Origin: Flavobacteriaceae bacterium
Lineage (GTDB): Bacteria; Bacteroidota; Bacteroidia; Flavobacteriales; Flavobacteriaceae
Direction of reading: 5' to 3'
Assembly: GCA_028284745.1 (NCBI GenBank)
Contig: JANQRC010000017.1
Location: 1 to 64,000 of the forward strand
Length of the DNA stretch: 64,000 nucleotides
Position 1 is the stretch's first letter; each line of letters begins with the position of its first letter. Both the position numbers and the translations under genes were made by a program. The notes beneath the pieces are model-generated. The model made no database searches and was not told the DNA's origin. It saw only the letters and a program-made list of their open reading frames with translations. Positions 52,879 through 61,181 of this stretch are shown here, piece after piece.

Positions 52879-54072
52879 ATGTACGGAAGCATACAACAAC
52901 ACCTTCAAAAAGAACTACAAGAAATCGAAGATGCCGGGCTGTATAAAAAGGAGCGCATCATCACCTCGCCGCAAGATGCGGTGATCAAGATATCAACAGG
53001 GGAAGAGGTCATCAATTTTTGCGCCAACAATTACTTAGGGCTTTCTTCACATCCCGAAGTTATAAAGGCCGCGAAAGACACTTTAGACTCGCATGGATTT
53101 GGCATGTCTTCCGTACGTTTTATTTGTGGCACTCAGGACATCCATAAACAGTTAGAGCAAAAGATCGCTGATTTTTATGGAACTGAAGACACCATATTAT
53201 ATGCAGCGGCCTTTGATGCCAATGGGGGGGTGTTCGAGCCACTGCTTACCAAAGAGGATGCCATCATCTCAGATTCTCTGAACCACGCCTCCATCATTGA
53301 TGGTGTTCGCCTGTGCAAGGCAGCCAGATATCGCTATGAGAACAACAATATGGAAGATCTCGAAGCCAAATTGAAGCAAGCCAATGCAGATGGTGCCCGT
53401 TTTAAGGTCATCGTAACCGATGGTGTCTTCTCTATGGATGGTTTGTTGGCCCCATTAGATAGCATTTGCGACCTGGCTGAGGCATACGATGCCATGGTCA
53501 TGGTCGATGAGTGCCATGCGGTAGGGTTCATCGGTGATACGGGTCGGGGCACGCTAGAAGAAAAAGGAGTGCTTGGCAGCGTAGATATCGTTACAGGCAC
53601 ACTAGGCAAAGCATTGGGTGGGGCTATGGGCGGATACACCACTGGGAAGAAAGAGATCATCGAGATACTACGCCAACGTTCAAGACCATACTTGTTTTCC
53701 AATTCTTTGGCGCCTTCAATAGTTGGGGCATCGATCAAAGTGTTTGACCTCTTGGCCAACGACACTTCTTTGCGAGATAAGCTAGCGTGGAATACGAAAT
53801 ATTTTAAAGATGGAATGAACAACGCCGGTTTCGACATCATTGATGGCGACTCGGCCATTGTTCCTGTGATGCTTTATGATGCAAAGCTATCACAACGCAT
53901 GGCCGATAAGCTTCTGGAAAGAGGCATCTACGTGATCGGATTTTTCTACCCCGTTGTCCCAAAGGAAAAAGCAAGGATCCGCGTTCAATTATCTGCAGCC
54001 CACACCAAAGAACATTTAGACAAAGCCATCGGTGCCTTTACAGAAGTTGGCCACGAATTGCACGTAATCTGA
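52879..54072 (+). CDS. kbl: Glycine C-acetyltransferase (2-amino-3-ketobutyrate CoA ligase)
   Basis: 397 residues from the ATG at 52879 ([20 protein letters not shown]); the frame extends 60 bases upstream into the AddA gene. A PLP-dependent alpha-oxoamine synthase: [51 protein letters not shown] and the PLP lysine in [17 protein letters not shown]. Works with threonine dehydrogenase in threonine breakdown; that gene is not in the window. KPVVP and sphingolipid-type (serine palmitoyltransferase) alternatives are less likely given the close Kbl motifs. Confidence 0.93.
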
Positions 54073-55612: not shown

Positions 55613-58369
55613 GTGAAGCCATTCATTTCAGAAGTAGTGTCAGAAGTCCTCGCCACGAATAATAACGTTGAGGACAGTATTTTAGTGCTGCCCAGTAAAA
55701 GAGCAATTCTATTCTTTAAAAAAGAGCTGGCCCTGCAAAAAGAAGGTACTTCTTTCTCCCCGATCTTTTTAAGCATCGAAGATTTTATTCAGCAATTGTC
55801 TGGCCTTAGGCAAATCTCCAATGTAGAGTTGCTATTTGAGTTCTATGCTGCATACGTAAGTATCATGCCAGAAGAAGAGCAAGAAGCCTTTGGCTCCTTT
55901 AGCAGGTGGGCCCAAGTGATCTTACAAGACTTCAATGAGATCGACCGTTATCTTGTTGATCATCATCAGATCTTCTCGTATCTGAAAGCTATCAAAGACT
56001 TAGATCATTGGTCAAAAAAAGATGCTTCAGGCCCTTTGGTAAGTAGTTATCTGAAATTTTGGCATTTGTTGCCAGCGCTCTATGAGGCTTTCTCTGCCTC
56101 ATTGGTCAAAAAAGGGGTCGGATATCAGGGGTTCGTCTATCGTGAGGCCAACGAGAACATCGAATTCTATCTACAAGAAAAAGGCGATGTCACTCATTAC
56201 TTTATCGGGTTCAACGCACTAAACAAAGCCGAGCAGAATATTTTCAACAGCATACTGCACCTTGGCAAGTCAAAGATATTCTGGGATGCAGACAGGCATT
56301 ACATGGAAGACCCTGCACACAATGCCGGACTTTTTCAAAGGACCTACCGAAAAAGGTGGAAGTATTTTGAAAATCATCCGTATGATTGGGTCAAGGATCT
56401 TTTCTCTCAAAAAAAGAATATCGAGATCATTGGTGTTCCCAAAAATGTCACACAAGCCAAACATGCAGCAACCATACTGGATCACTTGCACAGTAACGCC
56501 GAAGCAGGTCGCAATACTGCCATCGTGCTTGCAGATGAAAACCTGTTGACTCCTATGCTCAATGCTATTCCGAAGCACTATCGGAAGCTGAATATCACCA
56601 TGGGGTTCCCCTTGTCCTTAACGTCATTGGCCCAAGTCTTTGAATCTTTCTTCAAATTATACGCAGATCAGGCCAAAGGTGTTTTCTATTATCGTGATGT
56701 GCTACATCTATTGTCCTTGCCGCTCATTAAGACGCTTTTTACAAGCGATAATGTTGATGGTGCCCAACAAGTTCGAGATAGCATCCAGCGGAACAACTTC
56801 ATCTCTATAGATGCTGCAAAGCTCATGAGCTTCTTTCCAGCTTCTGTCTTGCCCATCGCATCTTTGCTTTTCGACATTGAGAATTATATAGTGCCCTCCT
56901 TGCTCGGCAATGTGCTCAAGATGATCATGGCTGCCAAAGAAAAGATCATGCCTGAATCAGAGGGTCATCACTTAACGCTCGAATATCTTTTTCGTTTCCA
57001 CCAATTATTCAATCAAATGATAACCCTAAATGGGAAATATGGCCAGATAAAGGACGTGAAGACTCTTATTTCGGTATTTAGGGAATTGCTCGCCATAGAG
57101 AAGTTAGATTTTGTTGGAGAGCCCTTAGAGGGCTTACAACTTATGGGAATGCTAGAGACGCGTTTGCTAGATTTCGAAAACGTCATCATCACATCTGTCA
57201 ACGAAGGGATTCTTCCCTCAGGAAAGAAAAACAGCTCTTTCATCCCTTTTGACGTGAAGAAACAGTTTGGGCTGCCCACTTATAAAGAAAAAGATGCCGT
57301 CTATGCATATCATTTCTATCGTTTACTTCAACGGGCGCAGCATATTTTCTTATTGCACAACACTGCTTCAGATGCCCTCAACACCGCTGAAAAAAGTCGA
57401 TTCTTAATGCAGATAGAGGTAGATGCCCTACCCCATCATTCCATTCGCTCATATACGGTAGGGCTTCCTGCTTCAAATAACAAAGAGGCCTTAAAGACCG
57501 TTGCTAAGGCGCCCGATGCCATCATGCGTTTGAGAGCACTGGCAGAAAAGGGATTCTCTCCTTCAGCATTTACCGCTTACATCAGAAATCCGTTGGATTT
57601 CTATTTTGAAAAGGTCTTGGGCATTCGTGAAGCGGAACTGGTAGAGGAAACGGTCGCAGCCAATACTTTTGGGTCCATCATACACGAAAGCCTAGAGTTG
57701 CTTTACAAACCCTATGTTGGCGATGTATTAACTAAAGACGAATTGGCCAAAAGCATCCTCCAGGTAGAAGAAGTCGTATCTGCACAGTTTAAGAAGCATT
57801 ATCGCAGCGGAAACTTTGCTAAAGGAAAAAACCTGATCTCTTTTGAAGTAGCCAAAGATTATGTAACTCGCTTTATCCAACAAGAGATCGATCTATTGGG
57901 CCAAGGAAATAAGATCCACCTTTTGAGCCTAGAGGAATCGCTAGAGGGCTCTTTTAACTTCCCTGGCCTAGATTTTCCTGTTAAGGTGAAAGGTGTTGCA
58001 GATAGGATAGATCGCTTCAATGGCAACCTTAGGATCATCGACTATAAAACAGGTAAGGTCTCACAACGAGAACTTAATTTGACACGATGGGCAGACCTCA
58101 CCAGTGATCATAAGTTCAGCAAAGCCTTCCAAGTGCTCACATATGCGTGTTTGTACAAAGGTCAAATGCCTCATGATGAACCGTTGCAGGCAGGTATCTT
58201 TTCGCTGAAGAACATGGTCGAAGGTTTCTTGCCCTTTCAAATGAAAGAAGGTAGAAAAGCAGATGCTTCGATCTCTCCTGAAACACTAGAAGCGTACGTC
58301 CGGGAGCTTGAGCTGTTACTGCTAGAGCTTTTCAATCCTAACATTCCATTCACTGAGAAAGAAGTATGA
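55613..58369 (+). CDS. AddB-like PD-(D/E)XK nuclease family protein
   Basis: A 918-residue protein, likely partner of the AddA-like helicase. The N-terminal half is an inactivated helicase-like region (ILVLPSKRAILFFKKELAL near 22-40), and the C-terminal nuclease domain has NTFGSIIHESLELLYKP near 683-700 and IIDYKTGKVSQRELN near 807 with the QVLTYACLY helix. No four-cysteine iron-sulfur pattern of classical AddB is evident. Start codon GTG (55613), five bases after a terminator, so it probably has its own promoter inside the ompA 3' region or depends on read-through. Confidence 0.88.
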   Translation: MKPFISEVVSEVLATNNNVEDSILVLPSKRAILFFKKELALQKEGTSFSPIFLSIEDFIQQLSGLRQISNVELLFEFYAAYVSIMPEEEQEAFGSFSRWAQVILQDFNEIDRYLVDHHQIFSYLKAIKDLDHWSKKDASGPLVSSYLKFWHLLPALYEAFSASLVKKGVGYQGFVYREANENIEFYLQEKGDVTHYFIGFNALNKAEQNIFNSILHLGKSKIFWDADRHYMEDPAHNAGLFQRTYRKRWKYFENHPYDWVKDLFSQKKNIEIIGVPKNVTQAKHAATILDHLHSNAEAGRNTAIVLADENLLTPMLNAIPKHYRKLNITMGFPLSLTSLAQVFESFFKLYADQAKGVFYYRDVLHLLSLPLIKTLFTSDNVDGAQQVRDSIQRNNFISIDAAKLMSFFPASVLPIASLLFDIENYIVPSLLGNVLKMIMAAKEKIMPESEGHHLTLEYLFRFHQLFNQMITLNGKYGQIKDVKTLISVFRELLAIEKLDFVGEPLEGLQLMGMLETRLLDFENVIITSVNEGILPSGKKNSSFIPFDVKKQFGLPTYKEKDAVYAYHFYRLLQRAQHIFLLHNTASDALNTAEKSRFLMQIEVDALPHHSIRSYTVGLPASNNKEALKTVAKAPDAIMRLRALAEKGFSPSAFTAYIRNPLDFYFEKVLGIREAELVEETVAANTFGSIIHESLELLYKPYVGDVLTKDELAKSILQVEEVVSAQFKKHYRSGNFAKGKNLISFEVAKDYVTRFIQQEIDLLGQGNKIHLLSLEESLEGSFNFPGLDFPVKVKGVADRIDRFNGNLRIIDYKTGKVSQRELNLTRWADLTSDHKFSKAFQVLTYACLYKGQMPHDEPLQAGIFSLKNMVEGFLPFQMKEGRKADASISPETLEAYVRELELLLLELFNPNIPFTEKEV

Positions 58370-59608: not shown

Positions 59609-59680
59609 CGTTGTGTTCTTTGGAGGCAAGTTGGGAAAAATACAGGTTGGGATAAAGGGTGTTTTCCTTGGATTTCGATA

Positions 59681-59713
59681 AAGAAAAAAGCTCCGAGAGC
59701 TTCTCGAAGCTTT
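59681..59713 (-). terminator. Terminator originally belonging to tRNA-Ala, now behind the displaced tRNA fragment
   Basis: Stem AAAGCT...AGCTTT with inner CGAG/CTCG (59687-59713), followed on the minus strand by TTTTTTCTTT. It lies just past the 3' tRNA fragment (59718-59762) and thus was the terminator of the tRNA gene before the island separated them. Confidence 0.75.
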
Positions 59714-59716
59714 CTT

Positions 59717-59762
59717 GTGGAGAAGATGGGACTCGAACCCACGACCTCTTGACTGCCAGTCA
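59717..59762 (-). repeat. Distal attachment repeat: displaced 3' part of tRNA-Ala
   Basis: 46 bases identical to 61075-61120, covering the tRNA from the anticodon stem to the discriminator base plus one. Beyond 59762 the match stops abruptly. This is the direct repeat left by site-specific insertion into a tRNA 3' end. Confidence 0.9.
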
Positions 59763-59876
59763 CTCAAAATAGTGTCTCATATTTTGGCAGATAGTTTCAA
59801 ATACTCTATAACTACCAGGTTTATAGAATTTGTATTTTTCTTATGCTTTCAGATAGTACCATATTTTATACTCAAA

Positions 59877-59885
59877 TGTTTGACC
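59877..59885 (+). repeat. Arm-site-like word, left end of island
   Basis: TGTTTGACC, same word and same orientation as the pair at 61007-61026. Sits about 115 bases inside the left attachment repeat. Confidence 0.45.
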
Positions 59886-59897
59886 TGAAAATTATAG

Positions 59898-60890
59898 TTA
59901 TTGCGCACTAGCTCTACCCAGATTTAATACATTAATACCTAATGCAACTCCAATAAAGGGTTTTCCTTCAAAATCCCAAAGCCTTCCTGTATCCTGACCT
60001 AAACCAAAATCATGTCCATAAAATAATCCTACACTAAAAGAATTATAACTAAAAGAAGTTCCTAAACCAAAAGAAAACAACCCTTGATTAAGCTGTTCTC
60101 CTACAGGAATTTGGTCTTCCCCCGCACTTGTTGTATTTCTACTATTTAGTGTAAGGGTAGAAGCTCCTACGAACCCACCTAATGTCCAACTTAAATCTCT
60201 TATACTATTATCTAAATTTTTTAGATATGTAAACTTACTTCTTCCTAAAAGAGTATAGGAAATCATTGCGTTAAGGTTAATTGATGCGGAAAAATCATCA
60301 CTAATCTCTTGACCACGCCTCTCAGTAGAAAATCTATACTTTAATGGTATGGTGAGTCCTGAAATAACCCACCCATTATGCTTTAACTTTATAGTCTGCC
60401 TATTCTTTAATTTGAAGAAATAACTTTCATTTCTGTCTATTAATTTAGTACTGCTACTATCAGTAATGCTTATCTGTTGTTGTTTATCTCCATCTAAAAG
60501 ATAATTTATGTATAATTTATCTCCTGTTAGTTTAACAGAAGCTTTACGGGTTTTATCAGGACACTCTGTACAGTCAACTGTATCTTTTTTTGTTCGCTTT
60601 ATATCTTTTTCAAGTTTAACTTTATAATCAGTTGTGACTCTTGTTTTAATCCCATTTACAACAACTTCTTTTTCTATAGCAACAGAATCACCTTTTTTAT
60701 GTAAAACTTCAGTTGAAGAAGTAATCTTTTGAATATGTAAGGTATAATCGCTTTTTTTAGTAAAGTCCAATGTATCTAATACTATAGTTCTAGGAATTTT
60801 CTTGTACTTGGTTCTAATACTAAGTCTTTCTTGACTTAATCCTGATGCATAAACAAATAATAAAACAAGCGAAAGTAGTATATGTCTCAT
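59898..60890 (-). CDS. Exported, possibly outer-membrane protein of unknown function (island cargo)
   Basis: A 330-residue protein that I cannot assign. It has a signal peptide (1-19, cut near GLS-QE), a lysine- and threonine-rich N-terminal half (about 20-170) with one CTEC pair (about 112-115), and a C-terminal half (about 175-330) of alternating polar/hydrophobic strands (FSFGLGTSFSYNSFSVGLFYGHDFGLG, cited as 278-304) that looks like a small beta barrel. Codons end mostly in A or T, unlike neighbouring genes, supporting recent transfer. It is the only gene of the tRNA-Ala island, so it is presumably why the island is kept. Confidence 0.75.
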   Translation of the reverse strand: MRHILLSLVLLFVYASGLSQERLSIRTKYKKIPRTIVLDTLDFTKKSDYTLHIQKITSSTEVLHKKGDSVAIEKEVVVNGIKTRVTTDYKVKLEKDIKRTKKDTVDCTECPDKTRKASVKLTGDKLYINYLLDGDKQQQISITDSSSTKLIDRNESYFFKLKNRQTIKLKHNGWVISGLTIPLKYRFSTERRGQEISDDFSASINLNAMISYTLLGRSKFTYLKNLDNSIRDLSWTLGGFVGASTLTLNSRNTTSAGEDQIPVGEQLNQGLFSFGLGTSFSYNSFSVGLFYGHDFGLGQDTGRLWDFEGKPFIGVALGINVLNLGRASAQ

Positions 60891-61006
60891 AATTAGAAGT
60901 TTATTTCAAATATAAAAATGAAAAAGCTAAATTAAATACCCAATAATGGGTATTCATTGAGTCATTTGTAAAAACTCCAATAATTTAATAAACCATAAAG
61001 ATAAAA

Positions 61007-61026
61007 TGTTTGACCTATGTTTGACC
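61007..61026 (+). repeat. Arm-site-like direct repeat, right end of island
   Basis: TGTTTGACC twice with an 11-base period (61007 and 61018), about 50 bases from the right attachment repeat. Helical-phase spacing suits a protein bound on one DNA face. Confidence 0.5.
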
Positions 61027-61063
61027 CAAAAGAAAAAGCATCTACAGAAACCCTGTAAATGCT
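61026..61063 (-). terminator. Terminator supplied to tRNA-Ala by the island
   Basis: Stem AGCATCTACAG / CTGTAAATGCT (61037-61047 with 61053-61063, one wobble pair) followed on the minus strand by TTTTTCTTTT. It begins 12 bases after the tRNA 3' end and replaces the original terminator now at 59681-59713. Confidence 0.75.
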
Positions 61064-61074
61064 TATAAATACTA

Positions 61075-61120
61075 GTGGAGAAGATGGGACTCGAACCCAC
61101 GACCTCTTGACTGCCAGTCA
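61075..61120 (-). repeat. Proximal attachment repeat inside intact tRNA-Ala
   Basis: 46 bases identical to 59717-59762, ending at the anticodon stem. On its left it opens directly into island DNA. Confidence 0.9.
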
Positions 61121-61149
61121 AGCGCTCTAGCCAGCTGAGCTACATCCCC
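61076..61149 (-). tRNA. tRNA-Ala (anticodon GGC)
   Basis: 74 bases folding as a full cloverleaf: acceptor GGGGATG with CTTCTCC, D arm GCTC...GAGC, anticodon stem CTTGA/TCAAG around loop CTGGCAG (anticodon GGC), and T arm GTGGG TTCGAGT CCCAT. The G3-U70 pair, the alanine identity mark, is present; U6-U67 is mismatched. CCA is not encoded. A TATATTTG promoter box lies 25 bases upstream. The 3' 45 bases are repeated at 59718-59762. Confidence 0.95.
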
Positions 61150-61154
61150 ATCGT

Positions 61155-61181
61155 CCCGATAACTATCGGGACACAAATATA
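61155..61181 (-). promoter_or_regulatory. tRNA-Ala promoter box and leader hairpin
   Basis: TATATTTG on the minus strand (61181-61174) is a perfect -7 box. Between it and the tRNA lies an 8-bp hairpin GTCCCGAT/ATCGGGAC, which would form in the 5' leader and may guide processing. Confidence 0.5.

Follow-up and report, generated by a model that had tools for sequence, protein, structure and literature searches.

The tRNA-Ala locus and its island

The window analysed here, a 64-kb stretch of DNA from a member of the Flavobacteriaceae, carries an intact tRNA-Ala(GGC) gene on the minus strand, placed at 61075-61149 by ARAGORN and at 61076-61149 by Rfam (RF00005). The 3′ part of this gene (61075-61120), which constitutes the proximal attachment site of the island described below, is repeated in direct orientation and without a mismatch (46/46) at 59717-59762. 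This second copy, displaced from the tRNA and likewise on the minus strand, constitutes the distal attachment site, and the spacing of the two 46-bp repeats is 1358 bp. The GC content of the enclosed DNA is 0.30, compared with 0.44 in both flanks; no 1.3-kb stretch elsewhere in the window is as low. The sole long open reading frame (ORF) of the interior (59898-60890, minus strand) is intact and encodes 330 amino acids with a putative secretion signal.

A first-pass annotation of this DNA had described the exact repeats and the intact tRNA gene, an AT-rich interior, a single cargo gene unaccompanied by an integrase, and arm-like words near both ends, including a pair spaced by 11 bases. All of these features were borne out. 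The arm word, TGTTTGACC, is found four times in the window where 0.51 occurrences are expected, and none of 100 shuffled sequences reached four. Three of the words, at 59877, 61007 and 61018, fall within the island, all in plus orientation; the fourth, at 53741, is unrelated to it. The words at 61007 and 61018 form a proximal arm pair, TGTTTGACC-TA-TGTTTGACC (61007-61026, plus strand), located 48 bp from the 3′ end of the tRNA, and the identical pair with the identical gap is present in other elements. The distal arm is one word only (59877-59885, plus strand), its usual partner being absent, and lies 114 bp inside the distal attachment site; complete elements carry a distal pair 102-116 bp inside the displaced tRNA fragment. 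A candidate remnant of an integrase start following the distal word (LKIIV, compared with NLKIVV) was rejected, because the distance of the word fits a distal arm and not the third word that precedes integrase starts. Closer to the distal attachment site is TTTCAAAT (59795-59802, plus strand), a possible accessory site. A word of this type, TTTCA[AG]AT, occupies the same position, 32-33 bp from the attachment site, in the island and in the distal ends of five other elements.

Two terminators, which the first-pass annotation did not include, complete the anatomy. One lies outside the island on the minus strand at 59680-59716 (59685-59705 in the terminator scan; RNA fold of -18 kcal/mol, z of -2.7) and would be the displaced terminator of the host tRNA-Ala. 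The other, the element's own, adjoins the tRNA on the minus strand at 61036-61064 (RNA fold of 61035-61074 of -15 kcal/mol, z of -5.7), and the stretch that comprises the arm pair and this terminator shares 82-84% identity with its counterpart in tRNA-Met elements of other genomes. When the flanks are joined in silico (the 5′ part of the tRNA, the displaced copy and the outer flank), the result is a complete tRNA-Ala with the outer terminator behind it, as expected if an element had replaced the 3′ half of the tRNA and brought its own terminator. The host genome is a draft of 73 contigs, and an assembler could in principle have joined unrelated sequence across a 46-bp repeat. Nevertheless, both arm ends lie inside a 233-kb contig, and their order, orientation and spacing are all correct, which makes such an artefact extremely improbable. 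Separately, two genomes have near-identical palindromes of the form CCCGATANCTATCGGG within tRNA-derived sequence or next to it, at 61150-61175 of the window and at L253:3480-3505.

A probable arm-site code in Bacteroidota

We searched for TGTTTGACC-TA-TGTTTGACC in 397 Flavobacteriaceae genomes and in GTDB contigs. The exact pair, TGTTTGACCTATGTTTGACC, occurs at no fewer than about 35 distinct Bacteroidota loci among the matches listed. The tRNA genes it adjoins are those for Met, Asn, Leu, Arg, Pro, Phe and Ala. Its orientation there does not vary, and mostly 40-61 bp separate it from the 3′ end of the tRNA, with a larger distance in three loci. Exact pairs that are not at a tRNA mark distal ends, where a tyrosine integrase gene or another gene lies a short way downstream. 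The viral contigs searched contain no exact pair.

When two mismatches were allowed, variants emerged whose two words had changed in concert. The wider form that results, TGTTNNACC-TA-TGTTNNACC, is present in 112 of the 397 Flavobacteriaceae genomes (about 28%), compared with one for a reversed-pattern control. Its commonest word is TGTTGTACC; the two NN are usually equal, and a minority of pairs are mixed. The TGTTNNACC pairs fall into 127 distinct contexts. A tRNA 3′ end adjoins the pair in 60 of them, at a median gap of 50 bp, and an integrase start does so in 40. The remaining 27 have neither neighbour; many of these are distal ends accompanied by a different gene, or are next to tRNA ends of degenerate sequence. 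Pairs at element ends are exemplified by L181:3876, by L256:1646 and 9806, and by L264:1973 and 16967.

Integrases near arm pairs were identified with phmmer. The tyrosine integrases that neighbour the exact pair carry an Arm-DNA-bind_5 domain, and the architecture PF17293 + PF13102 + PF00589 was found in all four arm-pair integrases tested. Some of the integrases that share the arm word are as little as 22-33% identical to one another. The recurrence of the pair beside tRNA 3′ ends and upstream of tyrosine integrases strongly supports the earlier reading of these words as arm sites. Judged by their position and conservation, the words probably bind the N-terminal domain of the integrase.

We found no description of these words or of such a code in the open-access literature, among the matches listed, and we therefore regard the code as provisionally new. 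It may matter more than the island itself. In many Bacteroidota, elements inserted at tRNA genes have TGTTNNACC-TA-TGTTNNACC at either end, and with this rule element boundaries, integrase-less relatives and the pairing of integrases with arms become predictable and testable.

Complete and compact elements with the same ends

Integrase-bearing elements of 8-58 kb combine direct tRNA repeats with the end geometry of the island. Those in which both ends were seen include elements of 29 kb at tRNA-Asn (G387), 58 kb at tRNA-Leu (G131), 23 kb at tRNA-Met (G795), 8.4 and 19 kb at tRNA-Met and tRNA-Asp (both in G135) and 29 kb at tRNA-Leu (G024). The same ends were also found at another tRNA-Ala gene, in an 18-kb element of Flavobacterium cauense. 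Its arm pairs are at 76637 and 94999 of one contig, its tRNA-Ala ends have the core seen in the island, and its integrase lies about 2.7 kb from the tRNA-side pair. In other genomes, elements also occur in tandem at one tRNA.

For the purposes of this analysis we grouped these elements as TGTTNNACC-arm tRNA integrative elements, and the island belongs to this group. It has the displaced tRNA 3′ repeat, identical over all 46 positions; its proximal pair has the common orientation and a distance within the range of about 40-61 bp; and its distal arm has the common orientation and distance, though as a single word. The island is set apart by its size. At 51 proximal ends the sequence on the element side extends for 3 kb or more, and of these ends only that of the island has a displaced copy within 3 kb.

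Several shorter arrangements were observed in other genomes. In G145:C4 (L308:6649-10004), 3.4 kb between two tRNA-Leu copies encodes HipA and an HTH protein and has no integrase. Its proximal arm pair is intact and its distal pair degenerate, making it a second compact, integrase-less candidate. In G082:C78 (L252:3525-7010), tandem tRNA-Met-like fragments and TGTTGCACC pairs bound short segments without an integrase, which carry a nucleotide cyclase and a 149-amino-acid protein. A 493-bp tandem repeat adjoins tRNA-Leu in G351:C14 (L253:3370-4137), where the arm pair is mixed, the tRNA fragments are interrupted and a short ORF is present. Finally, a 5-kb tRNA-Leu element in G072:C43 (L274:5118-10135) has an integrase truncated to 96 amino acids and appears to be a decaying member of the group.

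The cargo gene

Homologs of the 330-amino-acid cargo protein, which has a signal-peptide-like start, are present in Flavobacteriaceae genomes and are distant (24-37% identity in the alignment). No relatives were recovered in a search of genome contigs, and no arm pair was found within the 20 kb checked around the homolog loci. The protein matched no family in Pfam, NCBIfam, PHROGs or PADLOC and no phage record. An AlphaFold model of the protein alone is strand-rich and of low confidence, with a pLDDT of 38, which is below use for a fold search. From the N-terminus and this prediction, our guess is that the cargo may be a secreted or outer-membrane protein.

The tRNA-Ala site in relatives

In relatives, the tRNA-Ala gene often adjoins the same universal-stress gene. 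Within 1.0-1.4 kb, ten of 12 such loci lack both a displaced copy and an arm pair. Three of these ten have an ortholog of the nuclease gene at 55613-58369 directly next to the tRNA, representing an empty site. Two relatives carry something else. In G005, the same tRNA-Ala is accompanied by a AGTTTAACC-TA-TGTTTAACC pair at the expected distance. In G013:C18 (L363:10988-18483), a 7.5-kb element with a different integrase and without a TGTTNNACC pair is located between the nuclease homolog and the tRNA-Ala that adjoins the stress gene. With another integrase or another arm word, these elements are not the parent of the island. Since the site in relatives is either empty or occupied by differing elements, it is a hot spot for insertions.

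A displaced tRNA fragment, taken alone, could have arisen by an old local duplication that involved no mobility, as the first-pass annotation had considered. A duplication of this kind is hard to reconcile with the arm pair, the distal arm at the distance typical of the family, the foreign composition, the second terminator and the empty sites in relatives. The finding of this anatomy together with integrases elsewhere refutes it, and we give it almost no credence.

More serious is the proposal that the island is the decayed remnant of a larger, integrase-bearing island from which most of the interior was recently deleted in this lineage. This is one of two origins that fall within the explanation we favour below. 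It draws on the existence of the 8-58 kb elements with the same ends, one of them (18 kb) in the same tRNA-Ala core, and on the truncated integrase of the 5-kb tRNA-Leu element, an indication that decay happens; the single distal arm would fit an adjacent deletion. However, the interior holds no fragment of an integrase, the cargo ORF is complete, with its end 12 bp from the distal arm, and the relatives yielded no parental island, those of G013 and G005 being different elements. A recent deletion is a possible origin, and a doubtful one.

Integrases of the host genome

Integrases with matching arm sites occur in many other genomes. In the host genome, only two proteins contain PF00589, namely XerD (above the NCBIfam cutoff) and a XerC-like protein whose best match, XerC, is below the cutoff. 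No arm-domain integrase was matched at E<=1e-30, no second arm pair was found in this genome, and the flanks checked contained no further displaced copy of a tRNA. With tyrosine recombinases only of the XerC/XerD type, the genome contains no helper for the island, although one could be missing from a draft that is 97.8% complete. Searches of this genome and elsewhere did not return a second copy of the island. Autonomous tRNA elements, ICEs and IMEs carry their own tyrosine integrase, and the interior of the island holds the 330-amino-acid ORF alone.

These results bear on whether the island represents a true satellite lineage, one in which the loss of the integrase is old and has been followed by repeated movement on borrowed, arm-matched integrases. 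The first-pass annotation preferred a satellite to a remnant. Its inference that the ends and arm sites are those of a tRNA-targeting tyrosine integrase, and that the integrase is missing, stands; its preference for a satellite is not established, and the different elements in relatives neither refute nor prove the idea. Consistent with a satellite, the ends and the ORF are intact, the repeat is identical at 46 of 46 positions even though a displaced copy should drift freely, the composition is foreign, the arm word is common to integrases only 22-33% alike, and another compact element without an integrase, with HipA and an HTH protein between its tRNA repeats, exists at tRNA-Leu in G145. Opposed to these points are the failure to find a second copy of the island in its genome or elsewhere, the lack of an encoded helper and the rarity of short elements (one of 51 ends with a displaced copy at less than 3 kb). 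We judge a satellite lineage to be quite unlikely.

A probable stranded derivative of an integrative element

Judged by the architecture of its ends, the island very probably derives from a family of tRNA-targeting integrative elements of Bacteroidota, as a single-gene form that has no integrase and resembles a cis-mobilizable element (CIME). The best reading of this 1.36-kb segment is that it is foreign DNA, a stripped-down passenger that is stranded for now. The searches turned up no full-length parent that carries this cargo, and it is from the ends alone that we infer derivation from an integrase-bearing element. The single distal arm word, where a pair is usual, speaks against this reading.

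The anatomy suggests how the island could have arrived. An integrase of the TGTTNNACC-arm family, with an N-terminal arm-binding domain (PF17293 + PF13102 + PF00589), would have acted either in trans or, at one time, in cis. It would have bridged the TGTTTGACC arm words, at either end of the element, to the core contained in the 46-bp tRNA segment, as a circular form (1358 bp at the present size) recombined with the 3′ half of tRNA-Ala. Integration would have rebuilt the tRNA with the 3′ half and the terminator of the element, pushing the host copy and its terminator outward. The integrase was presumably lost either in situ or before arrival.

Because the island has the intact landing ends of its family and lacks the enzyme that moves them, a related island would have to provide the enzyme for it to move. 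Mobility in trans is a possibility. At present the island would not excise by itself. An arm-compatible element that entered the cell might either supply an integrase or integrate beside the island at the tRNA. As the smallest element in our survey with recognisable tRNA-integrase ends and one gene, the island offers a test of whether the integrases of this family act in trans.

A broader proposal is that the arm word is a shared mobility code and that single-gene modules bounded by attachment and arm sites form a cassette-like class in Bacteroidota. If this were true, any arm-matched integrase would insert and excise such modules at tRNA genes, across divergent integrases. We regard this proposal as unlikely.

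Comparison with known systems

A CIME, as defined previously (PMC5704250), is the closest counterpart. Like a CIME, the island keeps both attachment ends (attL and attR) without integrase or transfer genes, and it occupies a tRNA site that is used by autonomous elements. It differs in its size of 1.36 kb, in having one gene and in that its arm sites are identified too. As the correspondence concerns attachment sites and gene content alone, we say that the island works like a CIME, and claim neither descent from an ICE or IME nor site-specific accretion. Phage satellites such as PICIs, PICMIs and tycheposons are characterized by phage-derived or packaging genes; no PHROGs match, phage-record hit or arm pair on viral contigs links the island to them.

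Among elements of the Bacteroidota, NBU1 inserts at tRNA-Leu and is associated with arm-binding tyrosine integrases of the IntCTnDOT subgroup (PMC8138268), and a 10-kb island of Riemerella anatipestifer at tRNA-Arg excises and has a 53-bp repeat (PMC6764341). The island described here shares with both the direct repeats at tRNA 3′ ends and the association with tyrosine integrases. The further likeness of an arm-binding domain is stated for the IntCTnDOT subgroup, and arm sites are not mentioned for the R. anatipestifer island (PMC6764341). In contrast to the present island, each of these elements encodes its own integrase.

Hitchers such as MITEs and CALINs are thought to arise by loss of the recombinase gene (PMC11389934). 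The island resembles them in that the ends are kept and the enzyme would come from others. The ends themselves differ, those of the island being the attachment and arm sites of a tyrosine integrase at a tRNA gene rather than transposon ends or attC arrays.
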